Assembly: GCA_022414725.1 (NCBI GenBank)
Contig: CM039462.1
Coordinates: forward strand, 13,275,233-13,339,232
DNA length: 64,000 bases
Direction: 5' to 3'
From: Microglena sp. YARC
Taxonomy: Eukaryota; Chlorophyta; Chlorophyceae; Chlamydomonadales; Chlamydomonadaceae
Part shown: one piece after another, positions 12,218 through 63,979 of the stretch
Position numbering within the stretch: the first letter of the stretch is position 1
Layout: each line of letters begins with the position of its first letter
Translations under genes and position numbers: made by a program
The notes under the pieces: generated by a model
Told to the model about the DNA's origin: nothing
Databases searched by the model: none
The model's input: the letters and a program-made list of their open reading frames with translations, nothing else

Positions 12218-12239
12218 CTAAACTAGTAGCTCAAACTTG
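12218..12239 (-). CDS. PPR-cyclin gene, tentative terminal exon 13
   Basis: A 22-bp segment after the pyrimidine-rich acceptor TCGTTTTTAG completes the phase-2 codon left by exon 12. It reads KFELLV and a TAG stop. Many cyclins end the second fold with a short K[YF]-type tail, which fits. An exon this small cannot be proved from sequence alone. Confidence 0.4.
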
Positions 12240-15200
12240 CTAAAAACGAAAAGATTCATGTGACACTACTACACACCTCAATGTCATTTCAATCGCAGCG
12301 GCCAGTTCAGGCAAATGTAACAGTGGAGTCTATGCTACATTGAGGGCGGTAAAAAGACTTGTGTGGAAATTGTTACGCACCTCAATGTCATCTTGATTGC
12401 AGCGGCCAGTTCAGGCAATTCCGGGTTGACATAGCCGGTCATGGTGGTAAGGGTTTTGGGCCAAAGAGGAAGCTGGCCAGTGAGAAGGCGGTGCACATAG
12501 ACCACAGCAGCAGCAGCGATTGAGGGGCGGAAGCTTATGGACTCTGGATGGAGCACCACCTGGGTGGGGTGCGTGTGCGTGTGGGGTGGTGAGTGCGTGT
12601 GGGGTGGGGTGGGGTGGGGTGGGGGGGGGGGGCATTTGTGGAGGGGGAGGGGGGCAAAGGGAAAGTTGGCCAGTGAGTAGGCCGTGGATGTAGACCACAG
12701 CAGCGATTGAGGGGCAGAAGCTGATGGACTCTGGGTGGGGAGTGTGTGCGTGTGTGTGGAAGGGGGCAAAGAAGAAGCTGGCCAGTGGGAAGGCAGTGCA
12801 CGTAGACCACAGCAGCAGCAGCGATTGAGGGGCGGAAGCTTATGGACTCTGGATGGAGCACCACCTGGGTGGGGGGTGTGTGCGGGTGGGGTGGTGAGTG
12901 TGTGTGTGTGGTGGTGGTGATGGTGGTGGTGGGGGGGGGGCATTTGTGGAGGGGGAGGGGGCAAAGGGGAAGTTGGCCAGTGAGTAGGCCGTGGATGTAG
13001 ACCACAGCAGCGATTGAGGGGCAGAAGCTGATGGACTCTGGATGGAGCACCACCTGGGTTGGGTGTGTTTGTGGGTGGGTGGGTGGGTGGGTGGGAGGGG
13101 GGCAGAGAGGAAGCTGGCCAGTGGGAAGGTGGTGGACATACACAGCAGCAGCAGTCATTGAGGGGCAGAAGCTTATGGACTCTGGATGGAGCACCACCAG
13201 GGTGGGGTGTGTTTGTGTGTAGGTGGGTGTGGGGGGAGGGGGGCAGAGAGGAAGCTGGCCAGTGGGAAGGCGGTGGACATACACCGCAGCAGCAGCAGCG
13301 ATTGATGGGTGGGAGCTTATGGAATTTAGATAGAGCACCATCTGCGGATAGATGGATGGATAGATGGATGGACAAACAGAGGGACAGATGGATGTATGGA
13401 TGGAGGGATAGGTGGGTGGATCAATAGATAGATGGATGGACAGACAGAGGGACAGATGGATGGATGGATGGAGGGAGGGAGAGGTGGGTGGATCAATAGA
13501 TAGATGGATGGGCAGAAAGATGGACAGATGGATGGATGGATGGAGGGAGGGAGAGGTGGGTGGATCAATAGATAGATGGATGGACAGAAAGAGGGACAGA
13601 TGGATGGATGGAGGGAGGGAAAGGTGGGTGGATCAATAGATAGATGGATGAACAGACAGAGGGACAGATTGATGGATGGATGGAGGGAGGGAGAGGTGGG
13701 TGGATCAATAGATAGATGGATGAACAGACAGAGGGACAGATGGATGGATGGAGGGAGGGAGGGAGAGGTGGGTGGATCAATAGATAGATGGATGGATAGA
13801 TGGATGGTAGATGGATAGATGGATGGATAGATGGATGGATGGATGGATGGATGGATAGATGGATGGATGGATGGATGGATGGATGGATGGATGGATGGAT
13901 GGATAGATGGATGGACGGATAGATGGATGGATGGATGGATAGATGGATGGATGGATGGATGGATGGATGGATAGATGGATGGATAGATGGATAGATGGAT
14001 AGATGGATGGATGGATAGATGGATGGATGGATGGAGGAAGAGGTGGGTTGATGGATGGATGGATGGATGGATGGATTGATGGATAGATGGATGGATAGAT
14101 AGATGGATGGGTGGATAGATGGATGGATGGATGGATGGATGGATGGATGGATGGATGGATGGATGGATGAATGGATGGAGGAACAGGTGGGTTGATGGAT
14201 GGATGGATGGATGGATGGATGGATGGATGGATGGATGGATGGATGGATGGATGGATGGATAGATGGATGGATGGATGGACATAGGGAAAAATTGATGGAT
14301 AGGTGGGTGTAGGGGTGGGTGGATGGATCGGTGGGTGGAGCAAGGCTGTAAAACACACACACGTGTGTGTCCCATGAATACCGACATGCAAACCTGGGTG
14401 ACTAGATGCATGATTTCCTTCAGCAGCAGGACCTCCTCTGAGGTGGCAGTACAAGAAGCGGGATTGATGCCCACTTACATCAAGTACAGCTAGGCTGTAA
14501 AACACACACACATGTGTGTCCTATTTATACTTGAACTTGAACTTGAACTTGGTTACATAGCTTCAGCCAGCAATTTGGCTGCTCGTCGTCTTCGGCAGTA
14601 AAATAATTATTACCAGGAAAATGTAAACTCGAACAAATCACTTTTTCATTTAAAAAAAATATATTCCACTTCTTCTGAACGAAAAAAACAGTCCCATTTA
14701 TATAGGAAAGCGCACCTGGGTGACAAGAGGGTAGATGGGTGGATGAATGGATGGACAGAGGGACGGATGGCTGGATGGACAAAGGGACGGACGGATGGAT
14801 GGATAGGTGGGTGGAGGGGCGGGTGGTGGGGCAGTGGGTGGAGCTAGGCTGGAAGACACAGACACACACACACACACATGTGTGTGTCCCATTAATACCG
14901 AAATGCGCACCTGAGTGACTAGATGCATGATTTCCTGCAGCAGCAAGACCTCCTCTGAGGTGGCAGTACAAGCAGCGGGATTGATGCCCAGTGCTGGACT
15001 GTAGCCCAGCTGCGTCAAGTACAGCTGTAGGGAATGCAGGATAGGAAGCGTAGTCGTGTCGTGGTTCAATGCGCCCCTCAGATTGGTCTCCGCTGCCTTG
15101 ATGGCATTGACAGGGCATCCTGTGGAGTAGGTTTTAGAGTTCAGGGTTCATGGTTTAGGGTTTAGGGTCTCTGAAGGTTTGATGGCGTTGACAGGGCATC

Positions 15201-18200
15201 CTGTGTAGTAGGTTTTAGAGTTCAGGCTGTAGGTTTTAGGGTCCCTCAGATTGGTCTTAGACTTCAGGCTTTAGGGTCTAGGGTTTAAGGGTCCCTCAGA
15301 TTGGTCTCCGCTGCCTTGATGGCATTGACAGGGCATCCTGTGGAGTAGGTTTTAGAGTCCAGGCTTTAGGGTTTAGGGTCCCTCAGATTGATCTCAACTG
15401 CCTTGATGGAATTGACAAGTCATCCTGTGGAGTAGGTTTTAGAGTTAAGGGCTTAGGGTCCCTCAGATTGGTCTCTGCAGCTTGGAATGGACAGGGCATC
15501 CTGTGGAGCAGGGTCTAGGGTGTAGGGTTGAAGATCTCCCAGACACTGCACATTGAGAGGGTCTTCGGCACCCTTTTCTGTACCCCTACCGCACCCTTAT
15601 ACACCCAGAATACACCCTTTCAAGCCAAGCCAACAAATTTTGAGGGTCTTCGGCACCCTTTTCTGCACCCCTCCCAGCCAAAATGCACCCTTTACATATA
15701 TCATGTCATCACATGATATGATATTACATTACCTTACACTGCATTACATTACATTTCATTTTAAAGTCTGCTTGACACCGCGAGGGTGTATGAGACTCTG
15801 TGCTTTAAACAAAAAGAAAAAGCACCCACAAAGCAAAAAAAAACATTAAATCAGGTGTGTGTCGAGGACAAACAAACCAAACTCCCAATATGATGCCGGC
15901 AGTCTGACTATGCCAATTTCCCCCTCTATCTACAAATCAAAATCAACTGCAATTACCTGTTTCTTGTGCGATGGCAGCAACAGTAGTATACTAGGCTGAC
16001 TTTCATAACCTGTCACATCTAACACAACAACACAAAATGGCTCCAACTGCAATTACCTATTTCTTGTGCGATGGCATCGGCAGTAGTATACTAGGCTGAC
16101 TTTCACAACCTGTCACAAAAAACGAAACTGCCATTACCTGTTTACTGTGTGATAGCATCAACGGTAATGTAACAGGGTGACTTTCACAACCTGTCACATC
16201 TAAACAACAACAAAAATGGCTCCAACTGCAATTACCTGTTTCCTGTGCGATGGCATCAACCCTGACCACAGGCATTGGGTTGGACAGCTGCCCATACTGC
16301 GGGCCATGGTGTGCTCTCTGCTCACTGGTGATCAGCAGTGCTGCCACAGCTGTCAGCAACCGGATGTCCTCAGGAACCTGGGAGTGGGTGTGGGTGGGTG
16401 GGTATGGTTGGGTGTGTGGGGGGGTGGAGTGGGGTGGGGGTGGGGGGGTATGGGTTGGTGTATGTGTGTGGGGGGGAGGGAGGGGGTAGCAGCTTCCATT
16501 CAGCTCCATTAGCCAGTGACTGGGTCAAGCCTAAAGCTTGCAGCTGCATTTGAATGCCTGTCATGTCAGCTTTCATACTCACTAGCTAGATTCAGCTCTG
16601 GTCCAAGAACGGGGCAAGGGAGCTGCCTAGAAGCTGCAACATGTAGTAAAAAAAGAAACAGTATGGGAGGTAGCTACAGGCCGAGGGCAACCTGTTCAGG
16701 TTGTTAAACAGGTGTTCAGGGAGTAAAGCACCAGTTTATGTACATCATTGGTTAAACAAGTAGTTGTTGAACAGGTGCAGCACACCCGCAAGGATTTGAA
16801 CCCCGCACCGTCTTGTTTCAATGAGCTCTACCATTGAGGCATTCTTCAAAACGGGATACTGGGGTTGCACCCAGTCACACAATTTGCGACACGTTACACG
16901 AAGAAAACAAAATTGTGGGAGGTAAAAAATAACTTCCAAGTCCTGCATGGTCATTACTGTACCTATCAGCTGCAGCGCATTGTGGCTGACGATAGAATGT
17001 AAACTCAATTTGCAGAGGGTTGCACTGGGGTTGATCCCAATCACTCAATTTGTGATGCATTGCACAAAAGAAAACAAACGTTTGGGAGGTAAAAAACACT
17101 CACTAAGTGCGGCATGGTCATTACTGTATCAGCTGCAGCGCGTTGTGGCTGACAATGGGAGGTAAACTCAATTTGCAGAGGGTTGCACTGGGGTCAAACC
17201 CAATCACTCAATGTGTGATGCGTTGCACGAAGAAAATAAAAGTGTAGGCCGGTGTGGGAGGTAAAAACAACTCACCAAGTGCGGAATGGTCATTACTGTG
17301 TCAGCTGCAGCGCGATGTGGCTGACGATGGGAGGTAAACTCAACTTGCAGCGGTTTGCACTGGGGTAAAACCCAATCAATCAATTTGTGACACGTTGCAC
17401 GAAGAAAACAAAAGTGTGGGAGCTAAAAGAAACTTACCAATTGCGGCATGGTCATCACTGTGTCTATCAGCTACAGCGCGTTGTGGCTGACGATGGGGGG
17501 TAGATTCAATTTGCAGCGGGTTGCACTGGGGTTGATCCCAATCAATAAATTTGTGATGCATGGCACAGAGAAAACGAAAGTGTGGGAGGTAAAAAAATCA
17601 CTCACCAAGTGCGGCATGGTCATCACTGTGTCTATCAGCTACAGCGCGTTGTGGCTGACGATGGGAGGTAGATTCAATTTGCAGCGGGTTGCACTGGGGT
17701 TGATCCCAATCAATAAATTTGTGATGCATGACACAGAGAAAACGAAAGTGTGGGAGGTAAAAAACACTCACCAAGTGCGGCATGTGATGCGTTGCACGAA
17801 GAAAACAAAAGTGTGGGAGGTAAAACAACTGCATAGATCTGGCGTCTACGGGCCGACCAACTTACCAAGTGCGGCATGGTCATCACTGTGTCTATTAGCT
17901 GCAGCACGTTGTGGCTGACGATGGGAAGTAGACTCAATTTGTGGCAGGTTGCACTGGGGTCAAACCCAATCACTCAATTTGTGACGCGTTGCACGAAGAA
18001 AACAAAAAGTGTAGGAGGTAAACAAAACTCACCAAGTGCGGCATGGTCATCACTGTGTCTATTAGCTGCAGCGCGTTGTGGCTGACGATGGGAGGTAGCT
18101 GCAGGCCATGAGCCACCCTGAAGAGAAGTGCTGCAAGATCAGGTCGAAAACTGAGGTAGGCCAGGTCCACCGCTGCCAGGTTGAACGAACGTGTAGCCTC

Positions 18201-21200
18201 GAACTGAAGGACATGGCCGAAACAGGCGGCGCAGTGCACCTCCACGTTCTGCTCATGGTCCAATCCATACTGCAACCACTTGTTGCCAGACTGCAGGTTC
18301 ACAACAGCTGCCTGGGCAGAGAAGGCTTCCAGAGCACTCTGGAGCATGCCCTGAAACAGCCATCGGCCGACTAGTGGGCCAGTGCTTTGTATCCGATCGA
18401 TTTTGGAGGCCTCGGGCAGTATCTGGAACGGTGACCTGCGATCAAGTTAAAGTACACATTGTTACTCTCAGCTACTTGTTTCCAGACTGCAGGTTCACAA
18501 CAGCTGCCTGGGAAGAGAAGGCATCCAGAGCACTCTGGAGCATGCCTTGAAACAGCCATCGGCCGACTAGTGGGCCAGTGCTTTGTATCCGATCGATTTT
18601 GGAGGCCTCGGGCAGTATCTGAAATGGCGACCTGTGATCGAGTTAAAGTACACATTGTTACATCCAGCTACTTTTTTTCCAAATCCACAGTGTTATAACA
18701 AAGTGTACAGCAGTACTGCAGTTAAAAACTGGAGAGACACATACATGAGAGAGGATTCGTTACATAAACTCAGATAATCCTTTCCGAGGCAGGACAGCAG
18801 CACTGCCTGCCGACCATCAAATTTTATAACAGAAAGCACGAGGGTTTTAAAGGCACCCCCACAAACCTGGAAAACAAACTAGGTCAGCCAACCACCACGC
18901 ATTTGGGTGTATTATCCCCCCAAATGGGTGAACTAGACCCACTGAATTACTATACTGGCATCGACAAGACAGCGGGTGGTTGCAGGCTCGAGCCCTGACG
19001 GAGTTGAGTTTTACATCTTGTCCCTAAAATGCCAGCTCAGCAACTGCGTACGACTCACAGAGTACAAAGTACGCTATCGGTGCAAGTGGTTACTTGTTTT
19101 CCGAATTCATGGAGAGCATCATCACCTGCGAAATATCTACATCAACCTTCAAATTATTTCATTCAGCTACCAATCGCTACATTCAGCTACATGGAGAGCA
19201 TCATCATCTGTGAAATCTCTACATGCAGCTACCAATCGCTACATTCAGCTACATGCGGAGCATCATCACCTGTGAAATCTCTACATTCAGCTACAAATGA
19301 CTTCATTCAGCTACCAATCGCTACGTTCATCTACATGCAAAGCATCATCACCTGTGAAATATCTACATTCAGCTACCAATCGCTAGATTCAGCTACATGG
19401 AGAGCATCATCACCTGTGAAATCTCTACATTAAGCTACCAATTGCTACATTCAGCTACATGGGGAGCATCATCACCTGTGAAATATCTACATCAACCTAC
19501 AAATTATTTCATTCAGGTATCAATCGCTACATTCAGCTACATGGAGAGCATCATCACCTGTGAAATCGCTACATTCAGCTACATGGAGAGCATCATCACC
19601 TGTGAAACCTCTACATTAAGCTACCAATCGCTACATTCAGCTACATGGAGAGCATCATCACCTGTGAAATCTCTACATTAAGCTACCAATTGCTACATTC
19701 AGCTACATGCAAAGCATCATCACCTGTGAAATATCTACATTCAGCTACAAATGACTTCATTCAGCTAGCAAACGCTACATTCAGCTACATGGAGAGCATC
19801 ATCACCTGTGAAATCGCTACATTCAGCAACCAATTGCTACATTCAGCTACATGCAAAACATCATCACCTGTGAAATATCTACATTCAGCTACAAATGACT
19901 TCATTCAGCTAGCAATCGCTACGTTCAGCTTCATGGAGAGCATCATCACCTGTGAAATCGCTACATTCAGCTACCAATCGCTAGATTCAGCTACATGGAG
20001 AGCATCATCACCTGTGAAACCTCTACATACAGCTACCAATCGCTACATTCAGCTACATGGGGAGCATCATAACCTGTGAAATATCTACATTCAGCTACCA
20101 ATCGCTAGATTCAGCTACATGCAGAGCATCATCACCTGTGAAATCTCTACCTTCAGCTACAAATGACTTCATTCAGCTACCAATCGCTACATTCAGCTAC
20201 ATGGAGGGCATCACCACCGGTGAAATCTCTACATTCAGCTAGAAATCGCTACGTTCAGCTACATGGAGAGCATCATTACCTGTGAAATCGCAGCCAGCCC
20301 AGGACTGCGAGCTTGACTTCTGCAAGACACGAGTTGTCCTGCTGCAGTCCTTTGCCGAAGCGGATGATGACTCTCTCAGGGAGGGATTGGATGCCATTCT
20401 TGGCCACCTTATCTCTGCAGGACAGGTCAGGACAGGACAGGTCAGGAATGGTTAGGCATGCATGCATGCAGGTCAGGCATGGTTAGGCATGGTTAGGCAT
20501 GCATGTAGATCAGGCAAGGTTAGGCATGCATGCAGGTCAGGACGGGTCAGGACAGGTCAGGCATGGTCAGGCATGGTTAGGCATGGTTAGGCATGCATGT
20601 AGATCAGGCAAGGTTAGGCATGCATGCAGGTCAGGACAGGTCAGGACAGGTCAGGCATGGTTAGGCATGCATGCAGGTCAGGACAGGTCAGGACAGGTCA
20701 GGCATGGTTAGGCATGCATGAAGGTCAGGACAGCCATGGTTAGGCATGGTTAGGAATGCATGCATGCAGATCAGGCATGGTTAGGCATGCATGCAGATCA
20801 GGCATGGTTAGGAATGCATGCATGCAGATCAGGCATGGTTAGGCATGCATGCATGCAGATCAGGCATGGTTAGGCGTGCATGCGTGTCACTGAATTCTGA
20901 ATCTACTGAGTACGGTGGCAGTTCAGCCGTGATAGTGAAGAATGGTGATCAAATAATTGGTTAAGAAGCCTGATAGCCATTCTTTCACATAATCATGGAG
21001 GGATTGTACGCCACCCTTTTCCACCTTATCCCTACAGGTCAGCCGTGGTAGTGAAGAATGGTGAACAAATTATATGTGAGAGACAGATAGCCATTCTCTC
21101 ACATATATAATAAGGGATTGAATGCCACCCTTGGCCAGCTTATCCTTACAGGTCAGCCAGGATTGTGGAGAATGGTGAACAAATCATATGTGGGAGACAG

Positions 21201-24200
21201 ATAGCAATTTTTTTATATATTTAGTAAGGGATTGTATGCCACCCTTGGCCAGCTGATCTCTCCAGGTCAGCCAGGATTGTGAAGAATGGTGAACAATCAT
21301 ATGTGGGAGACAGATAGGATTCTCAGATATCAATATATGAGAACCAGCCGGAAAGAGTAACATACAGATATGTTCAAAAGCAACCTGATATCTGAGAGCC
21401 AGGCAAACAGAGTGACCAACCAACCTGATATCTTTATCTCTTTAGAGTGACCAACCAAACTGATATCTTTATCTCTTATATCTCTTATCTCTTTTTGGTT
21501 ACCATTTTGGGTTTATTTGGTTTCGCAGACCCTCTGCTCGTTTAGTTGGTTTAGTTGGTCTGTTGGTTTGGTTGGTTTAGTTGGTTGGTTTAGTTGGTTT
21601 TGCAGACCCTCTGCTCCTGAGCTTGGACTACCACGCGCCTCAGCACATGATCAGCATTCATCACCATCATTGTTTTTACAATCAGATTTTTTTCTTAAAA
21701 GTGGTCTTCCTACACTAGATGTAGACTCAAAGGATTATATGTGATGTAGTGGGGCTTTTAATACTCGTAACTAGGGAGTAGTCATCATCATCATCATCAT
21801 CATCCCTCGTCCAATGAGACACTGTCAAATATGTGGGTTCCAAAAACCTGAGGATGAAATGCATATGTTTGAGTGCCCTTTTTATAATGATATTCGCCTC
21901 CGCTACCAGAAGCTGTTTACAGATATTTATAGGCATGTCCATGAGGATACGGACTTAACCGTATGGAATGTGGAATTCTGCGATTCCACATTCAGAACCT
22001 TTATGAATGGAAATGGCACGTAGACTTTCTGGAGCAACCTAGCCGACTATCTTTCTACTTGTAGAAGAGCAAGACAGGAAGCCCTGGACTGCTTAGTGGC
22101 ACCGTATTTAATTATCCCTTTTTTTCTTCTTGTGACTTCTCATTTGTTAGCTTCTTACCTCCGTCACTGTAAGTGGTTGAGATCTGGGTCCTGCTCTAGG
22201 GGGTTTAATACCAACGCCACCAAAACGGTGGTTGGGAGTTCGGTTTGTTTGTCCTCGACACACCCCTGATGTACTGGGTTTTTTTGCTTTGTGGGTGCTT
22301 TTTCTTTTTGTTTAAAGCACAGAGTCTCAAACACCCTCGCGGTGTCAAGTAGACTTTAACATGTAATGTAATCTGAGAGCCAGGCAAGCAGAGTGACCAA
22401 CCAACCTGATATCTGAGAGCCAGACAAGCAGAGTGACCAACCAACCAACCAACCAGATATGCTCGACCAACCAACCTTATATCTAAGAAACAGCCGAACA
22501 GATATGTTTGAAACCAACCTGACATATTTGAAATCAACCAGATAAACAGATATATTTGAAACCAACCTGATATGTTTGAAACCAACCTGATATGTTTGAA
22601 ACCAACCTGACATATTTGAAACGAACCTGCCACATTTGAAACCAACCAGATAAACAGATATATTTGAAACCAACCTGATATGTTTGAAACCAACCTGACA
22701 TATTTGAAACCAACCAGACATACAGATGTGTTTGAAACCAACCTGACATATTTGAAACCAACCAGACAAACAGATAGGTTTGAAATCAACCTGATGTCTG
22801 AGAACCAGCCGAACAGTTGCGAGGCATAAATTTAGTGGTTTCAATGTTGCTTTCATGGGACCAACACCATCAACTGACGGACTGACGGACAGATACGCTC
22901 AAAACCAACCTGATGTCTGAGAACCAGCCGAACAGAGTGACAGTTGCGAGACATGGATTTAGAGGCTTCAATGTTGCTTCGATTGAGCCAACACCATCGA
23001 CTGACGGAGCTTGGTGCTTCAGTCGATTTTCAGCTAGCGCAACACGATACAGCACCGCGGCCTTCTGCTGAGCACTGCGGATGCCTGTCTCCCACAGAGC
23101 GCCGATAATGGCTGAAGTTGTGCATATGGGGATTTAGATTGTATTAGTAGACATGCATTTTCAACATTCGAACTTCCGATGTAACTTTCTCGCTGCTCAT
23201 TTTCCTTCTTAGCATTCGCGTAGCATATTCGCATTCTCCTGCGTCTGCGCTATCGAATGCTTCCACCTGCTCTTTGTTCCATGCAGTTTCGGTCAACTCT
23301 TCCCGAAACAGCAACCAAACAGGAGCTCATGCTTTCGCAGAGGCAATGCTGCTATCTAAGTCGCCGTCTACAACATCTGACGCGACTCGCAGCAACTTCT
23401 GTGGTCGCAGGGTGGTAGACGGTTACTTTGGTAGCGAGCTGCACCTCTGGGCAGCCGAAAGTATGCACTACCGGACAGAATGCGCCTCTCCCTGGACTTC
23501 CCAACAGGGGGGATGCGAAGCGCACATCCCTGGCGCATTCTTGATGGTCGCTGCCAGGAGCGAAGGCTCCATGCAATCGAGAAAACTCACTAACGAATCC
23601 CCTTTTCCCCCATGCAGGACTCCAGGACAGACACCTGCTCTTTTCAAATCGGGACGCTGCCAGTCACCATATGAACTGGAGCACCCTGGGCTTAACGCCT
23701 CTTATTGCCGACCCTTGACAACCACTGTTCGCGCGCGCCAATCAATTCATGGACCCTGCTAATTTCTGCCAGTTTTTCAAATCCACTCGACAATACCAAT
23801 CCACTTTCGAAAACACCCCCCACGCGCTCTGTTACCCCACGCACCAACTTCATAGCCAGGAGAACGGAAGCACAGGTTGGTCCCCAATCTGCGACCTCAA
23901 AGCTACGCGGAATCAGATTTACGCGGATAGTAGGAGTCAATGCGCTCCTCTCCACCCCGTTTCCCTCCAATGTGCCTCCCGCTATCCTAGCAACACTACC
24001 CTGATGCTCACTCAACACGCTGCTCTCTCCTCTTACGCTGCTCTCTTCCCTTACTCAACTTCTGCTCACAAGCACATGCCCCTTTCTGCTTTCTACCCTA
24101 ACACTAACCATAACCAATACGATGCGTCTCGGCCTACGGGGCTCCAAATCTCACTCCCCGATCAACCTCATGCTCACGACAAGTCTCGAGCTACCTATCA

Positions 24201-27200
24201 AACTCATAGGAGCTACGATCTTACCTGCCTGCCACATACCATCAATAATTATTATCATCCATCCTTGGACCGTAAAAAATGGTCGCCGACAACACGATCA
24301 TACCTTCGAGAGACTGCTGTCGTTGCCTAGCCTGCCCGCTGTCACTGATCAGATATGCAACCATCACCTTAACTCTAGAGATGTTAGAACCACGTCCTTC
24401 TCGACCAGCAGCCAGAGCCCCCTTTATCTCATCTTCATGCCCTCAACTGGTTTACTACCCAACACTCAAGCCGTTTTTTCCCTTTCAACTTGCTCGGATC
24501 CATCACTATGGAGAGCCACGGCGGGCTTGGACTCCTCAAAAGCCTGAGTGGACTTGAGTACTTTCCAGGTACGGAGTCTCCCACCCCCAACCTACGCCTC
24601 TACCCAGAGTCTACCACCCCCACCCTATGCCTCTACCCTGAGTCTACCACCCCCAACCTATGCCTCTACCCTGAGTCTACCACCCCCCAACCTATGCCTC
24701 TACCCTGAGTCTACCACCCCCACCCTATGCCTCTACCCTGAGTCTACCACCCCCAACCTATGCCTCTACCCTGAGTCTGCCACCCCCAACCTATGCCTCT
24801 ACCCTGAGTCTACCACCCCCACCCAATGCCTCTACCCTGAGTCTACCACACCCACCCCATGCCTCTACCCTGAGTCTACCACCCCCAACCTATGCCTCTA
24901 CCCTGAGTCTACCACCCCAACCTATGCCTCTACCCTGAGTCTACCACCCCCAACCTATGCCTCTACCCTGAGTCTACCACCCCCAACCTATGCCTCTACC
25001 CTGAGTCTACCACCCCCAACCTATGCCTCGACCCTGAGTCTACCACCCCCAACCGATGCCTCTACCCAGAGTCTACCACCCCCAACCTATGCCTCTACCC
25101 TGAGTCTACCACCCCCCAACCTATGCCTCTACCCTGAGTCTACCACCCCCAACCTTTGCCTCCACCCTAAGTCTACCACCCCCAACCTATGCCTCTACCC
25201 TGAGTCTACCACCCCCACCCTATGCCTCTACCCTGAGTCTAACCACCCACAACCTATGCCTCTACCTTGAGTCTACCACCCCCAACCTATGCCTCGACCC
25301 TGAGTCTACCACCCCCCAACTCATGCCTCTACCCTGAGTCTACCACCCCCAACCTATGCCTCTACCCTGAGTCTACCACCCCCAACCTATGCCTCTACCC
25401 TGAGTCTACCACCCCCAACCTATGCCTCTACCCTGATTCTACCACCCCCACCCTATGCCACTACTCTGAGTCTACCACCCCCACCCTATGCCTCTACCCT
25501 GAGTCTACCACCCCCAACCTAGTGCCTCAACCAACAACCTACCACCCCCAACCTATGTCTCAACAGAGGACTTCCTGCCCTAATCTATGCCTCTATCAAG
25601 AGACCTCCTCCCCATATCCTCCGCAAGAGGACGTAACCATAAGGCCCTACCCCAAGGCCCTCACCTCAAACCCCTGGCACGCGAACACCCCCCTTAACCA
25701 ATCCCACTCCAAACCCTCCAAATCTATAGGGGACCCCCTCATAAAGCTGGGAAGTAAAGCAAACAAGAAGTACCTGTGGACCAACAGCCACTTCACCCTT
25801 CTGCCATGCCGAAAGTAAACAAGCCCAGCAAGCTGGCGAAGATTCTGGCTCTCAACATAAAAAATGGTGTAGCGCCTGACCCCAGTTCCACGGTCTCGCA
25901 ATACCTAAGTCACATGGACCACTTCGACACACCTCAATTTGTAATTGAGTGTACTACCCCCCAGTACCACATCAGCCCCATGCCCACCTCTCCCATCCCA
26001 AATAGTACCACTAAAGCCATTAACTTGACTCTGTCCTGGGATACGTGGCACACACACCCCCTTGATTCGGAATCAACTCGGTTGATTTGGTGGCTCCTTT
26101 GGAACATTCTTCCGTGGCTACACTGGATTGCCTACAGGGTCTCCTTACAGAGACGGTGCCTCGGTGCAACGCACACAAAAAATGAAGAACGTCTCCTCGC
26201 CCCCACCTGTATTAGGGACATACTTATTCAAAAATACGCATTCAATGCCTATCTCCAGCCCCCCCATGACCCGACATGTAGAGGAGGAAAGCGCACCCCA
26301 CCTCAGCAAGGCCAGCCCACAATCCCCCGGCCCTAAGCACTATCCTACCATACATTGAGAAACAAATCTCAAGCCACTGCCAAGTGCACGCCATCAATGC
26401 CTACCTCGGTGGACCACATGTCAACACAGGGGAAATTTTTCAAATTTGGGGGAGAGACATCACCAAATACTCAAAGCAACCCGAAGCGACCTGGGTGTTA
26501 GGCCGCTTCACTTTCACCTCAGCGGGAAATTTTTCAAATTTGCTGATGCAGGCCTACATGCACACTGAATGCCCCCAGATGGGCATACTCCACCAAATTG
26601 CACAACCCGATTATAACCCTGAACACACCAATCCCCACAACCTTTCCTCTGTTGAATCCTACAACTTTGGAATCCTACCTGGTAGCAGCAAAAAACAAAT
26701 CCTGGAACGTCTACAAGGACATAATAAATGTATCTTGCACTTTACCACCCCCTCCCAACCGCATATGGACATGCCGGCTGTCTCAAACAATACCATAACA
26801 CCTGGTATTGGATAGACTCAGAAAACCTCTCGCCCATCCCCTTGGACTCCACACCGGGCGCCTGGCAGGCCATATATGGGCAAATCCTCATCCTTAAAGA
26901 TGAGAGCGGCAGACATGAGGTTTTTGGACCCCCAATTCCAGCTTGGTAATGCGTCGGCTGTTACCAAAGATACAACCCCTCCGAACCCAATGCCTACGCT
27001 AACCAACATGGAATATATACCATGATGGAGGACACCAGCTCACCCCCAACGCACCTCCCCCCCAAACACACGAATGGACTGCGACATGGGAGATGTTGCC
27101 TTAGACCCAACCCTGAGTGCTATCCTACCATACATTGAGAAACAAATTCGATGCCACTGCCAAGTGCACGCCATCAATGCCTATCTCGGTGGACCATATG

Positions 27201-36200: not shown

Positions 36201-36299
36201 CAGTAATGTAGCACACAGAGACCCACCCTTTAACCCTAAACTCTAAAACGAGTCGAGAATCCTTCTTTGGAATATTTATATATATACAGGTAAATATAT

Positions 36300-36361
<62 letters not shown>

Positions 36362-42300: not shown

Positions 42301-42792
42301 TGGATGGTGATGTGGATGGTGATGTGGATGCTGGTATGCATGCTGATGTGGATGGTGATGTGGATGGTGATGTGGATGCTGGTGTGGATGCTGGTATGCA
42401 TGGTGATGTGGATGGTGATGTGGATGGTGATGTGCATGCTGGTGTGGATGCTGGTGTGGATGGTGATGTGGATGGTGATGTGCATGCTGGTGTGGATGCT
42501 GGTATGCATGGTGATGTGGATGGTGATGTGGATGGTGATGTGGATGGTGATGTGGATGCTGATGTGGATGGTGATGTGGATGGTGATGTGGATGCTTGTG
42601 TGGATGGTGATGTGGATGCTGGTGTGCATGCTGATGTGGATGGTGATAATATATTGATTATTATTGTGGGAGGAGATAATGGCCTCCAAGTGGGCTCCGA
42701 AGCCGGGGTGGGGTGGGTGGTGGGTGGTAAACTCAGCCCTCTGTAGGGAAAATGGGCATGGGGTAGGAGATTTTGTTTTGCCCCCCCCCTCG

Positions 42793-42827
<35 letters not shown>

Positions 42828-42939
42828 CATCATCATCTGCCATCATCATCATTTTATTTTAATAATCATCCTCATAATGAGAATAATAATAATCATCATA
42901 ATAATAATAATAATAATCCTCATAATGAGAATAATAATA

Positions 42940-42971
<32 letters not shown>

Positions 42972-42989
42972 TGAATGATGATGATGATT

Positions 42990-43057
<68 letters not shown>

Positions 43058-43384
43058 TGATGATGATGATGATAACAATAGTAGTACACACCATGCTTCT
43101 CATCGTTGCAGGGAGGGCTAGAGCCTCAGACCACTTCCCAGTCTTCCCTAACAGATCCATCAAGGTGTTGAAGGTGACTACATTCGGAGTGACGCCCGCA
43201 GCCTGCACAAATCAGCACAGAGGATTAATGGATTAATGGGGTGGGTGGGTGTGTGTTTGGGTGGGTGGGCGGATGGGAGGGGGGAGGGGGGGGTAGTTAG
43301 TGTAACTATCGAATGACGCCCGCAGCCTGCACAAATCAGCACAGTGGAGTAATGGATTAATGGGGTGGGTGGGTGTTTGGGGAT

Positions 43385-43420
<36 letters not shown>

Positions 43421-43811
43421 GGATAGGTTTTGCAACTATCGAAGGACGCCCGCAGCCTGCACAGATCAGCACAATGGATCGATTGATTAATGGGGGGTGG
43501 GTGGGTGTTTGGGTGGGGATGGTTGGGTGGGTGGTTGGGGGGTAGGTGAAAGGGTGGGGGGGGGGTGTAGTTTGTGTGTTACAATCGGACACCCACGGCC
43601 TGCATAAATCATCACAAGTGATTGATAGATTAATGGGGTGGGATGGTGGTTTGGTGAGAGGGGTGAGGTGTAGTTTGTGTGTTCCTATCAAAGGACACCC
43701 ACAGCCTGCACAAATCAGCAAAAGGGATTAATGGGGTGGGTGGGTGGGGTGGGGGGTGAAGTTTGTGTGTTACTCTCGAAGGACACCCACAGCCTGCACA
43801 AAATCAGCACC

Positions 43812-43847
<36 letters not shown>

Positions 43848-52313: not shown

Positions 52314-52552
52314 ATGCAGACCATGAAGCTAAGCAAGGGATTGCAGTCAGCAGTCCGTCCTGGACGCCAGCCAACCCGCAGCGTGCGCCTGTCAGCGACC
52401 GCTGAAGTCGAGGCGCCGGCCGGTCCCCCTCCCACCAGGGCTCCTATTAACACTGCCCCCCCTCCTTCGCATATCATCAACGTCATTGAGTACAACGGGC
52501 AGTGGGAGAATGGCATTCCCCCTGTGATGGGAGCTCATCTGATGGCCTCTGG
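52314..52552 (+). CDS. 6-phosphogluconolactonase, exon 1 (transit peptide and N-terminal extension)
   Basis: The ATG in CAAAATGCAG opens MQTMKLSKGLQSAVRPGRQP. The exon ends GCC TCT GG at donor GTACGT, phase 2, which joins A|ACT of exon 2 to give ASG-TVAPTSVSK. The RSVRLSATAEV segment is a plausible transit-peptide cleavage zone. This is the only junction in the gene with no obvious copies in the next intron. Confidence 0.75.
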
Positions 52553-55500
52553 GTACGTGCTTGCTCTATGCTTGCCATAGCTCATAGTGCCGTGACTGCT
52601 ATTAATGTTGCATCGAAATCGGGAGCATGCTTCAGGCTGGAGCCGAGTCCAACTTCAAAGGCTCTATAGTTAGTTTCCCTGGGGTCAGCCCACTTGGGTT
52701 GGAGCATGACGATGATGATGCTTAGATATTTTTGCATGTTCAGATGTGCAGCTGCTTATCGCAAAACGCTGGGTTGTAGAAGGCTCGGAATGAACGCATC
52801 CCTCCTAATTCTGCATTACGGGTAACCCATACAACCTCGTTCAGAGGAAGCGGGCTAGCCGGCTGCGGGATCGCATTTTTGTACATCAGCGCGTCTTCGC
52901 TCTGTCTCGATTGAAATATCGATGCGCCGACGGAATGGCCGCTGGACCCGAGTCGAGTCCTGCCATGCTAGATCAGCTCGCAAGCTGAAAAGCTCTGCGA
53001 ATGAGCTTTCTCGATATCACTATCGCATGGGATGTTTTTGCATCTGACTCACGTCCATCTTACACGTCCGACCCTTGCAGCAATTTCGGCCAACTTCTAG
53101 CCTGCTTCCCCTTCGAAGAGTCGGACCAGAGTTTCGTCCCCCATTGCACGCTGTTACCCCCATTTCGACGTTGTCATATGCCGCTACTGCACCCCTCATG
53201 CAACCCCTAGTCCTTGCTGGTTGGCAGGGCGAACTCGTTCCCCCCCCACTGTCCTCACATTTCGAGAGGATTTTGAGGGCTCAGCTTTTGAACTTGATTT
53301 TTTTCTTCAGTTTTCTGTTTGATCCGACTATGACTCAGCTATTCCCGTGAATCCATTGAAGGAGTGCATAGCCAATCAATTAAGAGTTTCGCACGTCCCA
53401 TCAACCCTCACCCACAAGCACACACACACACGCACACACACTCACTGCCCCACCCACCCCTCCCTATACGCACACCCTTCCCCCAATACACACACACGCA
53501 TGCACACACACTCGCACCAAGCATGTGCTTTCGAGCACGGGCTGGTATGGCAGGGTCTAAGCATAGCGGAAGTATGGGAGGGCAGGGCAGACCCTAAGCG
53601 TAGCTTATGATTGGCAGGGCAGGGCCTGAGCGTGGCGTAAGCATGGCATGGTATGGCAGGGCCTGGGCATAGTGGAAGTATGGCAGGGCTTGAGCATAGT
53701 GGAAGCATGGTATGGAAGGGCCTGAGCATAGCGTAAGCATGGTAGTGCAGGGTAGCTTAAGAAAGCCAGGGGGGGACCTGAGCATAGCGGAAGCATGGTA
53801 TGGCAGGGCCTGAGCAGAGCGGAAGCATGGTAGTGCAGGGTAGCTCAAGAAAGCCAGGGGGGGACCTGAGCATAGCGAAAGCATGGTATGGCAGGGCCTG
53901 AGCATAGCGTATGCATGGCAGTGCAAGGTAGCTTAAGAAAGGCCAGTGTGGGTGGGTGGGTGGGTGGGTGTGTGTGGGGGGGGGGGGGCAAGTGCAGCGT
54001 ACGCATGCCAAGAAACAGTAGAGCATGAGTGTAGCATAAGCATGGTCGGGCAGGGCAGGGCAGGGCCTGAGCGTATCATACGCAGGATATGTGGATTGAA
54101 CAGGCATAGGCACGATAAAATACATGTTGGGAGCTTAGGCCTTGCATTAGCACCCTTACCCACACATCCTTACTATACATTTCACATTTATACCACCACG
54201 TTACCATCCCAAAACCGCCCTCACCCCCACCCCCACTTGCAGAACCATGGCCCCCGCTTCGGTCTCCTAGGGTGTAGGCATTCCCTTCTACCCCTTTGAC
54301 CTTGCCCACTTTGCCCACCCACATCCACCCCCACCCCCCACCCATCCTTACTGTCCGTAATCCATTCTCACCACCACCATCACATGCAGAACCATTGCCC
54401 CCACCTCCGTCTCTAAGGGTGTAGGCATTCCCTTCTACCCCTTTGACCTTGCCCACTTTGCCCACCCACATCCACCCCCACCCTCACCATCCTTACCGTC
54501 CCTAATCCATTCTCACCACCACCATCACGTGCAGAACCATCGCCCCCACCTCTGACCTTGCCCACTTTGCCCACCCACCTTTGACCTTGCCCTCTTCGCC
54601 CACCCACATCCACCCATCCTTACCATCCCTAACCCACTCCCACCACCACCACCACCTGCAGAACTGTGGCCCCCACCTCCGTCTCCAAGGGTGCTGGCCT
54701 TGGCGTCTACCCCTTTGACCTTGCCCACTTTGCCCACCCACATCCACCCATCCTTACCATCCCTAACCCGCTCCCACCACCACCACCACCTGCAGAACTG
54801 TGGCCCCCACCTCCGTCTCCAAGGGTGCTGGCCTTGGCGTCTACCCTTTTGACCTTGCCCACTTTGCCCACCCACATCCACCCATCCTTACAGTCCCTAA
54901 TCCACTCTCACCACTACCACCTCCACCTCCACCTGCAGAACTGTTGCGCCCACCTCGGTCTCCAAGGGTGCTGGCCTTGGCGTCTACCCCCCGGACGTTG
55001 CTTACTACTCATTGGAGGGCAACAGCGAAATCTGCGTGAGTGTCGACGCTGCCTCTGCTGCCTCTGCCCTGGGTTCCAGCATCGCCGCCTCATGCACCAA
55101 AGCAGTGGAGCAGAAGGGAGTATTCTCTCTGGTCATCTCAGGGGGGTCCTTGCCCAAGATGCTGGGCTCTTTGTCCAGCGCCCCCATCCAGTGGGACAAG
55201 ACGCACATTTTCTTTGTGGACGAGAGGAACGTGCCCTTTTCTGACAACGACAGCACCTTGAAGGCCTGCAGGGAGGAGCTATTCTCTAAGGTGGGCGGAG
55301 GGATTGGGATGATGGTGGTGGTGTTCGGGAATGATGGGGGTGTGTGCTGGTGGTGTTTGTGTGGTGGTGTTTGTGTGGGGGGGGCGTGAACGCGCCCTTC
55401 TCTGATAACGACAGCACCTTGAAGGCCTGCAGGGAGGAGCTGTTCTCTAAGGTGGGTGGAAGGTTTGGGGTGGAGGTGGTGGCACCCACATACACACACT

Positions 55501-58385
55501 AACACACACAATCACATACACACATACACACATACACTCACATACACATACATGCACACACACACACTCTCGTGCGCACATACATACACACATGCACTAA
55601 CACACGCATACACACATTCATTCAGATAACAGGTTGCAAGCAAAATAAGGCAGCGCAAAAAGCAGAATGATCAAAGCAGGTATGCGTGTTGATGAGAATA
55701 ATCAAAGCAGATATGCGTGCGGTACACACACATACATAAACACATACATGCTCACACAAACACACATGCACACATACACGCATGCACACATACACCCACA
55801 GACACACATACACGTACACACACCTCACATAATCACATACGCACACCCACCTGACAGGGCAGCAACGAAGCTAGAGCCACAATGACTAGTGCAGTACTCT
55901 CCTATTGGGTGTTTGTCTGTATGGTGGTCTTGCTGGGGTGGGTTGTGGTGGGTGGGGGGGCGGGTGAGGTGGGGGGAGGGATACCCGTATCACCCACCTT
56001 GTTCTCCAGACATCTTGCAAGATGTCTGGAGAGCACTCGCAACTGTGTAGTTCAACATTATTACATAAACATATATCGGGAGGGGTGGGTGGGTATCGAA
56101 TCCCACTGGATGCAGGTCGGGTGTGGAATCTAGGCAAGTAGTAAGTCGCAATCATAGCAAAGACCCGCTGTGGCAGTGGTTGGGACCGCTGGGTAATCAC
56201 CTTGAGCTTGCAGTCGTAGATGCCTTCTGCTGCTTTGAAGGGGCTGGTCATCCTACATTGCATTACTCTCCATGCAACGCCATGCAACGCAACACCATGC
56301 AACACCACGCAACACCATGCAACACCATGCAACACCACGCAACACCATGCAGCACCACGTAACACCATGCAGCACCACACAACACCACGCAACACCACGG
56401 AGCACCATGCAACACCACGCAACACCATGCAACACCATGCAACACCACGCAACACCACGCAACACCATGCAACGCCACGCAACACCATGCAACACTATGC
56501 AACACTATGCAACACCACGCAACACCATGCAACACCACGCAACACCTCGCAACACCCTGCAGCTCCACGCAACACCTTGCATTACTCTCCATGCAACACC
56601 ATGCAACACCAGGGTATTACTCTCCATGCAACACCACTACTCAACCAAGGTACCTCCCCTCACTTTTGACAGGTCAGCATCCACGAGGCCAACGTGCATG
56701 CCACCCTATAGAACTTGCTCGCCGGCAAGGGCAAACTGCATTGCTTTCCATGCAGCACCAGTACTTAACCATCGTCCCTCCCCTCCCTCCTCCTCCCCTG
56801 AACTTCCCTCGCTCCTCACCTCCTCCCCTACGCTCTTCCTCCCCTGACCTTCCCCCGCTCCTCACCTCCTCCCCTCGCTCCTCCTCCCCTGACCTTCCCC
56901 CGCTCCTCCCCTCCTCCCCTACGCTCTTCCAGGTGAACGTCCCCGAGGCCAATGTGCACGCCATCATGGAGAACCTTCCCACCGACAAGTGCGCAGTGCA
57001 GTACGAGGGGCAGCTGCTATCTCTCCGAGGCTCTGTGTTAACATTCAACAGCCAAGGCCTGCCCGTGTTCGACATGATCCTCCTAGGTGGGCCCAACTTA
57101 TAATTTACAATATGTTTGACTAATAATTTGCAATTTTAAGTTAATTTAATTTTACTAATAATTTCCTTTTTGTTTAACTAATAATTTGCAAATATGAGTA
57201 ATATAATTTGCAAATGTAAAATATATATTTCAACTCTCTGTGTTAACATTCAACAGCCAAGGCCTCCCCGTGTTTGACATGATCATCTTAGGTGGGCCCA
57301 ACTTGTACCAGCAAATACTAAATAGCTTACAAATCTGAGTTTTTTTATATTCCAACCCTTGAGGTGACTCAAAACAGCCAGGGCCGTGTTCGACAGCCAC
57401 GGCCGTGATCGATGTGATCCTCATAGGTGGGCCCAACTTGTACTTGCAAATACCAAATAACTTGCAAATATGAGTTTTTTCTATTCCAGTCCTTTGAGGT
57501 GACTCAAAACAGCCAAGGCCTCCCCTTGTTCGACATGATCCTGTTAGGTGGGCCCAACTTATAGAGCAAACATAAATGATAAGGAAATATACATTAATTG
57601 TATTACCGCCCTGTGTGTTGACTTTCATGTAAGGGCCTCCCCGTGTTCGACATGCTCCTCCTTCCAAGACTGGTACTTGCAAAAACTAATAACTTGCACC
57701 TTGAAGCAGACACAACCAGCTGTCTAGAACTGCTGACCACTCCCTTCTCTCCCCACCCCAAGCCACACACTCCCTTCCCTCCCCACCCCAATTCAACCAA
57801 TCCCATCCCACCACACCAACCTCGCACAGGTCTTGGCCCCGATGGCCTCGTCGCCTCCCTCTTCCCCCACAAGTCCCAGCTCACCGCCACCACCTCCTGG
57901 GTTCTCCCCGTCACCATCTCCCCTAAGCCACCCACCCACTCACCTCCCTCCCCACCTCCCCACCCCAAGTCACCAAATCCCATCCCACCCCACCAACTAT
58001 GCACAGGTCTTGGCCCTGATGGCCACGTCGCCTCCCTCTTCCCCCACAAGTCCCAGCTCACCGCCACCACCTCCTGGGTTCTCCCCGTCACCAACTCCCC
58101 AAGCCCCCTCCGACCGCATCACCATGACATTGCTGTCATCACGCTGCCAAGGAGGTTGTCTTCTTCGCCATGGGCAAGGACAAGGCCGATGTTGTCCACC
58201 GTGCACTTGAGGTGCAGGCCCTCCCTGGCTCCCTGCCAGCTCAGCTGGTCCGCCCTGAGAGCGGTACACTCACATGGTACCTTAACTCTGAGTCAGCAGG
58301 CGAGTTGAGCCCCTCCATGTGGGAGGACGCCAAGGCATACCCTAGGTCTACCTTCCCTAAGCCTGTCAAGGCTGACTCAGCATGA
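52314..58385 (+). CDS. 6-phosphogluconolactonase, probably plastid-targeted (4 exons)
   Basis: Four exons join in matching phases to a protein of about 375 residues. It hydrolyses 6-phosphoglucono-1,5-lactone to 6-phosphogluconate, step two of the oxidative pentose phosphate pathway. Motifs in order: VISGGSLPKML, THIFFVDERNVPFSDNDS, FDMILLG and GPDGHVASLFPHKSQL, all diagnostic. The N-terminal 30 residues are rich in Ser/Arg/Gln with few acids (MKLSKGLQSAVRPGRQP), as in chloroplast transit peptides. An extension of about 60 residues (IEYNGQWENGIPPVMGAHLM) before the enzyme domain is unrecognised. The last exon needs several 1-bp corrections around 58,090-58,150. Introns carry repeated copies of their own splice junctions. 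Confidence 0.85.
53400..53530. repeat. CA-rich simple repeats
   Basis: (CA)n and (CACG)n tracts within intron 1. Confidence 0.85.
53545..54080. repeat. Minisatellite GCATGGTATGGCAGGGCCTGAGCATAGCGGAA
   Basis: About 14 units of 28-70 bp with a higher-order unit including GTAGCTTAAGAAAGCCAGGG. It is interrupted by a (GGGT)n/poly(G) tract at 53,948-53,989. In intron 1. Confidence 0.9.
54160..54930 (+). repeat. Five copies of the exon 2 acceptor junction
   Basis: Acceptors near 54,238, 54,386, 54,530, 54,657 and 54,791 are each CACCACC..TGCAG|AACC(T)G, followed by up to 60 bp of exon 2 start (GCCCCCACCTCCGTCTCCAA). Then CTTTGACCTTGCCCACTTTG replaces the exon. The copy at 54,238 has TCCTAG where the exon reads TCCAAG. 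The two nearest the exon are practically identical. Confidence 0.95.
54939..55290 (+). CDS. 6-phosphogluconolactonase, exon 2 (substrate-binding half)
   Basis: Acceptor ACCTGCAG|AACTGT, donor TCTAAG|GTGGGC, 352 bp, phase 2 in and phase 0 out. It codes TVAPTSVSKGAGLGVYPPDV, then GVFSLVISGGSLPKML, then WDKTHIFFVDERNVPF and SDNDSTLKACREELFSK. The SGG loop and DER..P motif are the conserved phosphate/lactone-binding elements. Confidence 0.85.
55385..55480 (+). repeat. Copy of the exon 2 donor junction
   Basis: The last 65 bp or so of exon 2 (TCTGATAACGACAGCACCTT through TTCTCTAAG) and donor GTGGGTGG recur, 162 bp downstream of the true donor. Confidence 0.95.
55490..55850. repeat. (CACATA)n-type microsatellites
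   Basis: CA/ACAT-rich simple sequence with two copies of ATGATCAAAGCAGGTATGCG-like text at 55,665-55,725. In intron 2. Confidence 0.9.
56003..56032. other. Perfect 30-bp palindrome
   Basis: TCTCCAGACATCTTG is followed immediately by its exact reverse complement with no spacer. Located in intron 2 of the 6-phosphogluconolactonase gene. Confidence 0.9.
56260..56645. repeat. CATGCAACAC decamer minisatellite
   Basis: About 35 units of about 10 bp (CATGCAACAC/CACGCAACAC). Open frames of His/Asn/Thr or Val/Leu/Cys are artefacts of the 10-bp period. Confidence 0.95.
56665..56735 (+). repeat. Copy of the exon 3 acceptor junction
   Basis: TTTGACAG|GTCAGCATCC with ACGAGGCCAACGTGCATGCC parallels exon 3 (VNVPEANVHA) but reads VSIHEANVHATL and then a TAG stop. 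Confidence 0.9.
56933..57086 (+). CDS. 6-phosphogluconolactonase, exon 3
   Basis: Acceptor CTCTTCCAG|GTGAAC, donor CTCCTAG|GTGGGC, 154 bp, phase 0 in and phase 1 out. It encodes VNVPEANVHAIMENLPTDKC, then AVQYEGQLLSL and LPVFDMILL. The next exon completes the conserved FD.+LLG.GPDGH motif. Confidence 0.85.
57225..57670 (+). repeat. Four copies of the exon 3 donor junction
   Basis: Near 57,292, 57,425, 57,546 and 57,660 the exon end (CCAAGGCCTCCCCGTGTTCG, then ACATGATCCT) and donor-side GGTGGGCCCAACTT are repeated every 120-135 bp with an AT-rich tail. The most distal copy lost the donor (CCTCCTTCCAAG). Confidence 0.95.
57830..57930 (+). repeat. Copy of the exon 4 acceptor junction
   Basis: CGCACAG|GTCTTGGCCCCGA and about 90 bp of exon 4 are duplicated 177 bp upstream of the real exon. 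The active-site motif reads GPDGLVASLFP (His replaced by Leu), which marks this copy as the non-functional one. Confidence 0.9.
58007..58385 (+). CDS. 6-phosphogluconolactonase, exon 4 (catalytic and C-terminal part)
   Basis: After acceptor TATGCACAG the exon reads GLGPDGHVASLFPHKSQL and WVLPVTNSP with the canonical catalytic GPDGH. Between 58,090 and 58,150 the expected PSDRITMTL..AAKEVVFFAMGK is split over three frames. About four missing bases next to CCCC/CCCCC runs and nearby would restore it. The last frame runs MGKDKADVVHRALEVQALPG to LVRPESGTLTWYLNSESAGE and a TGA at 58,383. Assembly indels are more likely than decay, because flanking codons are perfectly preserved. Confidence 0.75.
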
Positions 58386-61430: not shown

Positions 61431-61479
61431 TTGAGGTGGTCGCCCTTATTGTTATGTATTAAGTTTTTTTTGCAAAACT

Positions 61480-62970: not shown

Positions 62971-62999
62971 GAGTCAGGCTTTGTGTTAGGATGAATGGT

Positions 63000-63115: not shown

Positions 63116-63639
63116 GAAATATAGGTGAAGGTTATTTTGACAGGTGCGTTTCAGAACCTGGGATGCAAAATCCGGACCCTGTCATGCTAGGGCGCGCATG
63201 CCCATCCACAGTTCAGTCTATAGTACAAGTAGCCGGTGGGGTGTCTCAAGCAGAGCACATTTACAGACCGCTTGTGGTGATCAACCTTGGTTACTTAGTT
63301 GGAGGCATAGGAGAGCCACACCAGGTCAGCAACTACAGGCAGTTCATGTGGTCGGCAACCTGGGATGCAAAATCTGGACCATGTCATGATGTCAAAGTCC
63401 CTTGAGCTACTCTAGTCACTGTTTCTTTTTTGGGCTACGCGTAGCAGCTTCTAGGCAGCACCTTTCCCCCCCTCCTTGGGACAAACCTAGAACCAGCTAG
63501 TGCGTCTGGAAGTTGACATTATGGGCATTTCAATGCAACTGAAAGCTTTGGGCTAGACCCAGTGGCTCGCTGTTGGAGCTAGCTGGAAGCTGCCATGCGC
63601 GACCTAAAAATGAAACAATTACCCTAATGCCCTATAGAG

Positions 63640-63917
63640 GGAAGGGGTCCTCCACATTCGGATACAGTGGTTAAGCCAGTTCCCAGTGCTTAGTCTTTAT
63701 TATACCCATATTGAATCCGCCCGCAGACAAGGGGTCCTCCACTATCAAACACAGTGTCTAAGAAAGTTCTCAGCCAGTTCTCAGTGCTAACTCTTTATTA
63801 TACCCATGTTGACTCTGCCCGCAGACGGGTGGTCCTCCACGTTCGAACATGGTGGAAAAGCCAGTTCCCAGTGGTAAAGCCAGTCTTTGGTGTACCCATG
63901 TTGACTCTGTCCGCAGA
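63640..63917 (+). repeat. Two or three copies of an acceptor junction of the right-edge exon
   Basis: CCGCCCGCAG|ACAAGGGGTCC (near 63,727) and CTGCCCGCAG|ACGGGTGGTCC (near 63,824) repeat the real acceptor CTGTCCGCAG|ATGGGTGGTC, with GTACCCATGTTGACTCTG-type intron before them. A more decayed copy starts near 63,643. Period about 95-100 bp. Confidence 0.85.
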
Positions 63918-63979
63918 TGGGTGGTCTATCCTATGGTCGAGCGCCTCATCACCTCTGCATGCGACAACTTGATCAAGGT
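63918..63979 (+). CDS. Internal exon of a third gene, unknown product
   Basis: Acceptor CTGTCCGCAG, donor ATCAAG|GTGTGTG, about 62 bp. The open phase encodes WVVYPMVERLITSACDNLIK. Its upstream intron holds tandem copies of the acceptor, which independently supports a real splice site. No family is recognised from 20 residues. The gene continues beyond the window and upstream exons were not identified. Confidence 0.5.

Follow-up and report, generated by a model that had tools for sequence, protein, structure and literature searches.

Why should splice junctions be accompanied, on their intron side, by partial copies of themselves? The question is raised by a 64-kb window – the whole stretch of DNA analysed here, lying on a contig of 194.9 Mb in an assembly of 568 Mb and 2390 contigs – in which a first-pass annotation had described such copies at nearly every junction of two genes. 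One of these is a PPR-cyclin gene, the other a 6-phosphogluconolactonase ('lactonase') gene, and all the introns of both models are GT-AG (Table 1). P0001, a protein from a public eukaryote protein set, is identical to the lactonase exons at 232 of 282 aligned positions, the remainder forming two patches. Behind it, the top-ranking named relatives come from volvocine and other chlamydomonadalean algae; these comparisons point to the nuclear DNA of a green alga.

Three green-algal proteins aligned to each gene back PPR exons 1-3, 5-9, 11 and 12 and all four lactonase exons. PPR exon 4 lies inside longer green-algal protein matches that extend into the E4 donor array, and PPR exon 10 gave no match above the cut-off with the three proteins aligned to the gene. 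Partial exon copies in PPR introns 1, 2, 6, 8 and 11 and in all three lactonase introns also match the proteins of other algae. On reading the sequence, single-base frame breaks are seen in coding exons of both genes, at 58080-58170 (lactonase exon 4), ~44850 (PPR exon 1) and 36475 (start of PPR exon 5); because P0001 reads intact across those of lactonase exon 4, they probably reflect errors in the assembly's consensus and not the decay of a pseudogene. PPR exon 1 also contains, at 44450-44618, an in-frame tandem repeat with a unit of 45 bp (3.8 copies, 94 percent) – an exonic tandem duplication that was retained, which fits a filter sparing in-frame changes in a tolerant region. Simple-sequence arrays (GGAT at 13346-14279; CTGATGTGGATG at 41899-42647) occupy much of PPR introns 11 and 2 and were mostly masked in alignments. 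The retroelement in PPR intron 6 holds a 33 bp tandem array and is flanked on both sides by similar bases, ctactaatacaat, as judged by eye; Pfam matched its RNase H piece and none of four other pieces searched. An Rfam search gave no hit at gathering scores.

Table 1. Genes, junction arrays and other elements of the window (positions counted from its first nucleotide; E, exon of the PPR-cyclin gene unless stated otherwise)
Feature	Position	Strand	Details
PPR-cyclin gene	12381..45189	-	12 exons modelled; further exons on both sides outside the model
PPR-cyclin E1, E2, E3, E4	45189-44244, 43202-43092, 41176-41000, 37995-37900	-	
PPR-cyclin E5, E6, E7, E8	36475-36380, 35477-35286, 23111-22910, 20414-20280	-	
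PPR-cyclin E9, E10, E11, E12	18435-18033, 16377-16236, 15119-14911, 12559-12381	-	
6-phosphogluconolactonase gene	52314..58385	+	exons 52314-52552, 54939-55290, 56933-57086, 58007-58385
E2 acceptor array	43190..43820	-	5 copies, spacing 88-143 bp
E3 donor array	40530..40940	-	one longer copy (~60 bp exon edge) and 8 copies of a 45 bp unit
E4 acceptor array	37977..39623	-	22 copies, 74 bp unit (19 bp exon + 55 bp intron)
E4 donor array	37101..37953	-	8 intron copies, 99 bp unit (~54 bp exon + 45 bp intron)
E6 acceptor copies	35519..35795	-	3, spacing 84-92 bp
E7 acceptor copies	32686..33150	-	3; now ~9.7-10 kb from exon 7, retroelement between
LINE-like retroelement, RNase H domain (PF00075)	23160..32630	+	PPR intron 6, between exon-7 acceptor copies
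E8 donor array	19108..20289	-	17 copies, spacing mostly 62 or 82 bp
E9 acceptor	18278..18677	-	one extra copy, unit 196 bp (158 bp exon aligned)
E9 donor array	16858..17966	-	7 copies, unit ~166 bp
E11 acceptor copies	15150..15520	-	4
E12 acceptor copies	12600..13344	-	3 detected
Lactonase E2 acceptor copies	54230..54938	+	5, spacing 127-147 bp
Lactonase E3 donor copies	57236..57660	+	3; the first used by the P0001 gene model (by reading)
Right-edge exon (63917-63977) with upstream acceptor repeats	63674..63977	+	spacings 98 and 92 bp; repeats include the acceptor and first exon bases

Copies were sought with junction windows of +/-100 bp on the same strand (blastn, at least 32 bits), the match having to cross the junction by at least 8 bp per side and to lie within 12 kb. 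At this threshold 24 of the 30 junctions in the two genes carry copies, the repeated unit crossing the exon-intron boundary at both 5' (11/15 donors) and 3' ends (13/15 acceptors) of introns. There are 102 junction-spanning copies in total, from 1 to 22 per junction, and every one of them (102/102) sits on the intron side of the true site. The first-pass annotation had claimed as much – copies at most junctions, from one to more than 20 each, on the intron side – and its list of junctions was reproduced with the exception of the PPR E12 donor, where a copy can be seen by eye at ~12.3 kb, its intron part being below the threshold length. The other junctions with no copy at threshold are the PPR E2 donor, the E5 acceptor and donor, the E10 acceptor and the lactonase E1 donor. 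The exon at the right edge is affected too, as had been stated (Table 1).

The copies are direct repeats that stay close to their source. When a shorter query was used, each of the 99 junction-spanning copies lay within its own intron in direct orientation, none was found in the rest of the 64-kb window on either strand, and the mean coverage by inverted copies was 0-5 percent. Across 31 arrays from four genes the unit measures 62-293 bp (median 161), of which 12-158 bp are exon. That the copies nearest the exon are usually the most similar, another claim of the first pass, is borne out by a negative rank correlation in 10 of the 11 arrays with at least four copies (Wilcoxon p = 0.002); in the E4 donor array, for instance, the nearest copies are 99-100 percent identical and the farthest 84-86 percent. 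Such a gradient can be explained either by outward growth or by a master copy that is selected and stays constant.

Could the repeats have been made by noisy long-read assembly? The frame breaks described above do mean that the consensus may be imperfect and the copy numbers off, but the copies have diverged, some by almost 30 percent, they start or stop at the edges of exons, and independent loci have them too. Moreover, P0001 – which may come from another assembly, since it is intact across the broken part of lactonase exon 4 – includes the first of the lactonase donor copies. An assembly artefact is hardly credible.

Which copy is the real exon can be approached through the codon positions at which changes fall. 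Sites where most copies agree against the exon were counted as changes in the exon lineage, and those private to a minority of copies as changes in the copy lineage; this site count replaced per-copy counts (117/63/150), which are pseudoreplicated by changes common to several copies. Exon-lineage changes are distributed 15/7/43 over codon positions 1/2/3 (p = 6e-8), whereas copy-lineage changes number 84/71/106 over 633/628/627 sites, with slightly more than an even share at third positions (p = 0.026); single-copy arrays, in which the direction of change is undecidable, give 21/16/35 (p = 0.017). Because changes in the exon lineage are mostly at third positions and those in the copies nearly even, the outermost, exon-nearest copy is, to judge by this pattern, the real exon under coding constraint, the others evolving almost freely. 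Splicing would then pass over the decoys, most simply by exon definition, that is, by the pairing of the nearest acceptor and donor. Divergence is also lower in the exon part than in the intron part (0.107 vs 0.125; exon lower at 26 of 30 junctions), a comparison that mixes the lineages and was not taken as proof.

The same data bear on the idea that the copies are functional, as alternative exon ends or redundant splice sites under selection. Many do keep splice signals: a GT or GC is present in 50 of 55 donor copies and an AG in 54 of 74 acceptor copies, while 45 of 129 have a 9-nt site identical to the real one. One lactonase donor copy is used in P0001, whose model, at residues ~207-217, apparently leaves exon 3 before its end and joins donor copy 1 (~57240-57290), losing 21 residues. 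Those residues are, however, kept in the relatives compared, so that the P0001 model looks like a prediction error and suggests that gene predictors can be misled by junction copies. Together with the almost even spread of copy-lineage changes across codon positions, and with paralogous introns that carry different arrays, this makes a function for the copies very improbable.

Those paralogous introns come from a sample of 11 chaperonin genes, the best matches to one family in the same genome, whose exon segments are profile matches with approximate edges. Exon-edge copies accompany nine of the 11 (one of them, g7, weakly and with 27 bp matches alone); g4 and g10 have none. By segment, 26 of 51 have nearby copies, mostly reaching the exon edge and lying on the intron side. 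Two CCT1 paralogs, g3 and g5, yield 27 and 17 same-species protein matches for about seven exon pieces each, many of these matches being partial copies that end at exon ends, while g7 (CCT gamma) yields eight for eight pieces. Over five genes, copies occur at 32 of 60 placed junctions (donors 13/30, acceptors 19/30; one junction misplaced and one known copy missed), and at none of the 14 that belong to g7, whose introns, unlike those of most other genes examined, have almost no tandem copies although they reach 1.6 kb; genes therefore differ strongly in copy content. This array-free gene, all 14 of its junctions being without a copy, served as a control along with positions along the genes themselves.

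When introns are counted, 19 of 28 carry a copy at the donor, the acceptor or both, a count that excludes g3 introns 4 and 5; one further protein gap in g3 and two in g5 are without a refined intron. The acceptor g3_i4a, modelled inside a copy and the source of the sole copies off the intron side (2/135), was left out of later counts and is still included in the 32/60. Intron positions differ between the two CCT1 paralogs – the intron at residue 171 of g5 is absent from g3. Where their introns do share a position, they have no detectable sequence in common and their arrays are different; arrays thus arise or turn over independently.

The central issue is whether the splice junction is itself a target. 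The first-pass annotation had proposed template switching, R-loop-based or transcription-coupled, and, more broadly, a junction-directed or transcription-coupled process (R-loop template switching or repair at stalled co-transcriptional splicing complexes, for example) might duplicate splice-site or transcribed-intron DNA preferentially. Repeat density does not peak at junctions, which speaks against such a process. Of the intron positions beside the junction, a share of 0.70 have a copy within 3 kb; over the first kilobase this share lies at 0.40-0.74, and farther into the intron it is 0.84. In the exon it starts at 0.69 and has dropped to 0.00 by 150-200 bp, four deeper bins, each of five positions, giving 0.20; the values for gene flanks and the retroelement are 0.20 and 0.27. 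A flat profile in the intron and a falling one in the exon are what blind duplication with loss of exonic events would give. Nor is the breakpoint fixed relative to the junction, since the exon depth of the unit varies over its whole 12-158 bp range and scales with unit length (r = 0.64), and in the window donors and acceptors are affected about equally often.

How many junctions should be occupied by chance was simulated with random tandem duplications, the units being drawn from the junction units observed, wholly exonic events discarded and introns grown to their observed lengths; the simulation assumes perfect detection and single duplications, and borrows its ancestral length from a relative. 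For ancestral introns of 150, 230, 350 and 500 bp, 24.4, 22.8, 21.1 and 18.6 of 28 junctions became occupied, compared with 23 observed (the PPR E3 donor, missed by a wider query, being counted as one occupied junction). The median intron of C. reinhardtii is given as 229 bp in PMC8226300. The repeat finder TRF, which is blind to junctions, called 47 arrays in 28 introns, 14 of them junction-spanning. Random placement predicts 20.8 such arrays at 229 bp and 15.2 +/- 2.9 at 350 bp, and only 7.0 at the present-day lengths of the introns after collapse, a twofold excess of observation over expectation (p = 0.005). The comparison with random placement thus shows an excess of splice-site arrays at today's lengths and none at an ancestral 350 bp, and the verdict on junction targeting hangs on an ancestral intron length taken from a relative.

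Several further observations speak for a directed process. The exon share of the unit (13-58 percent, with one at 81 percent, in 31 arrays) departs from uniform placement (KS p = 1e-4), also after allowing for exon length, exon-rich units being rare; selection against long exon decoys is one possible cause. Chaperonin gene windows have more of their length in tandem copies (mean coverage 0.44, n = 34) than random ones do (0.29, n = 36; one-sided p = 0.008), a test in which windows from the same locus are not independent, the random set may hold introns and intergenic DNA may consist partly of young transposons. Within the window, coverage is 0.69 for the PPR gene, 0.46 for the lactonase and 0.21, 0.02 and 0.30 for three flanks. 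Tandem families unlinked to a junction are few, nine in 28 introns, with copies at 30 of the 56 junctions of those introns under permissive linking. The outward identity gradient, too, would suit such a process. A separate point concerns the simulation of blind duplication: exon-derived sequence makes up ~14 percent of the window introns in sum, less than the ~35 percent simulated at 230 bp, and decay would lower it. Counts of exon copies and junction-linked families from a union-find collapse of introns were not used, as this procedure merged families through misaligned repeats (it assigned 2020 bp of exon copies to PPR intron 3, far above what reading gives). Tests by the density profile, the breakpoint phase, the repeat-finder calls and the simulation, in which random placement within short ancestral introns reproduces the occupancy, leave a splice-site-targeting process unneeded, and we consider the junction-directed explanation unlikely, though a modest bias tied to junctions or to transcription may exist.

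Probably, then, these are 'mirage'-type arrays produced by the neutral growth of short introns through local tandem duplication, combined with selection on exons. Ordinary local tandem duplication – by replication slippage, unequal exchange or template switching – would be frequent and more or less blind in this genome. Duplications inside an exon would alter the protein and mostly be lost, whereas those inside an intron or across a junction would leave the mRNA unchanged as long as the exon-nearest site is used; junction-crossing events would persist because splicing keeps to those sites. Introns that started short (perhaps ~150-350 bp) would in this way grow from both ends, later duplications re-copying junction-derived DNA, and the copies would be near-neutral decoys. 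Slippage tolerated only in introns, a further suggestion of the first pass, comes close to this account.

In favour of neutral growth are the direct and local nature of the copies, the codon pattern, the simulated occupancy, the number of junction-spanning TRF arrays expected at 350 bp, the independent origin or turnover of arrays in the CCT1 paralogs and the fact that both donors and acceptors are affected. Against it stand the greater tandem coverage of genes than of random DNA, which a blind process acting genome-wide would not predict, as well as the twofold excess at present-day lengths, the scarcity of junction-unlinked families, the non-uniform exon share, the shortfall in exon-derived DNA and the slight third-position excess in copy-lineage changes and the uneven codon counts of single-copy arrays. 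A variant in which tandem duplication is concentrated in transcribed introns and biased towards junctions by a transcription- or splicing-coupled process – introns budding from their own ends, with exon definition making the decoys harmless – seems to us doubtful.

Neutral growth would offer a concrete way for introns to lengthen from a few hundred bases to kilobases without transposons. The intronic copies are, in effect, fossils of the exon edge, from which recent exon changes can be read without an outgroup. If the arrays are genome-wide, they also constitute a natural collection in which decoys lie next to the real splice sites, and a direct test of the spliceosome's choice of the outermost site.

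Repeat-driven change of introns has been recognised in several forms. Introners, or introner-like elements, share this feature and are dispersed to many loci, whereas the algal copies, across the 64-kb window, remain in their own introns. In Drosophila and potato, introns have been gained when a coding segment containing a proto-splice site was duplicated in tandem (PMC2891723; PMC4974935), a process that resembles the present one in combining tandem duplication with splice signals. The two ends of such a new intron are copies of each other, however, whereas none of the 25 algal introns longer than 120 bp has similar donor and acceptor ends (three matches among all 28 came from shorter introns whose compared windows overlap); birth of these introns by exon duplication was rejected, and existing introns appear to grow instead. 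Human genes in segmental duplications come closer: according to PMC2812944, variable internal tandem repeats lie at exon-intron boundaries, with 27 intron modifications, and such minisatellites change the extent of introns. Their own units average ~30 bp, and they are mostly expanded in primates and often kept in alternative transcripts or forming new introns.

Among the literature matches listed – for example the best 20 of 623, as titles and the beginnings of abstracts, with few subscription journals – no such arrays are described in a green alga or genome-wide, which is weak evidence of absence; the sections available of two green algal genome papers (PMC11228838, PMC8226300) describe none either. 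The first-pass view that nothing of the kind was on record is nevertheless contradicted by the amphioxus 'mirages', minisatellite-like tandem duplications of exon-intron boundaries reported in PMC3087553 for Adh3 and the globins BflGb6 and BflGb9; PMC3902484 adds troponin C and PGBD5. RT-PCR is reported to suggest normal splicing of the mirage genes, and haplotype and somatic changes in length have been reported. The likeness is close: a direct tandem unit spans the boundary, 5' and 3' boundaries are both involved, and many copies carry AG or GT signals (PMC3087553; PMC3902484). Mirages are known from a handful of animal genes, with units reported there as tens to ~160 bp, whereas here, from DNA sequence alone, they are seen in a green alga at 24 of 30 junctions in two genes and in nine of 11 chaperonin genes (one weakly), the longest units exceeding that range. 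The arrays are therefore a known kind of structure, new in their host lineage and larger scale, and they suggest that mirages are not peculiar to amphioxus.
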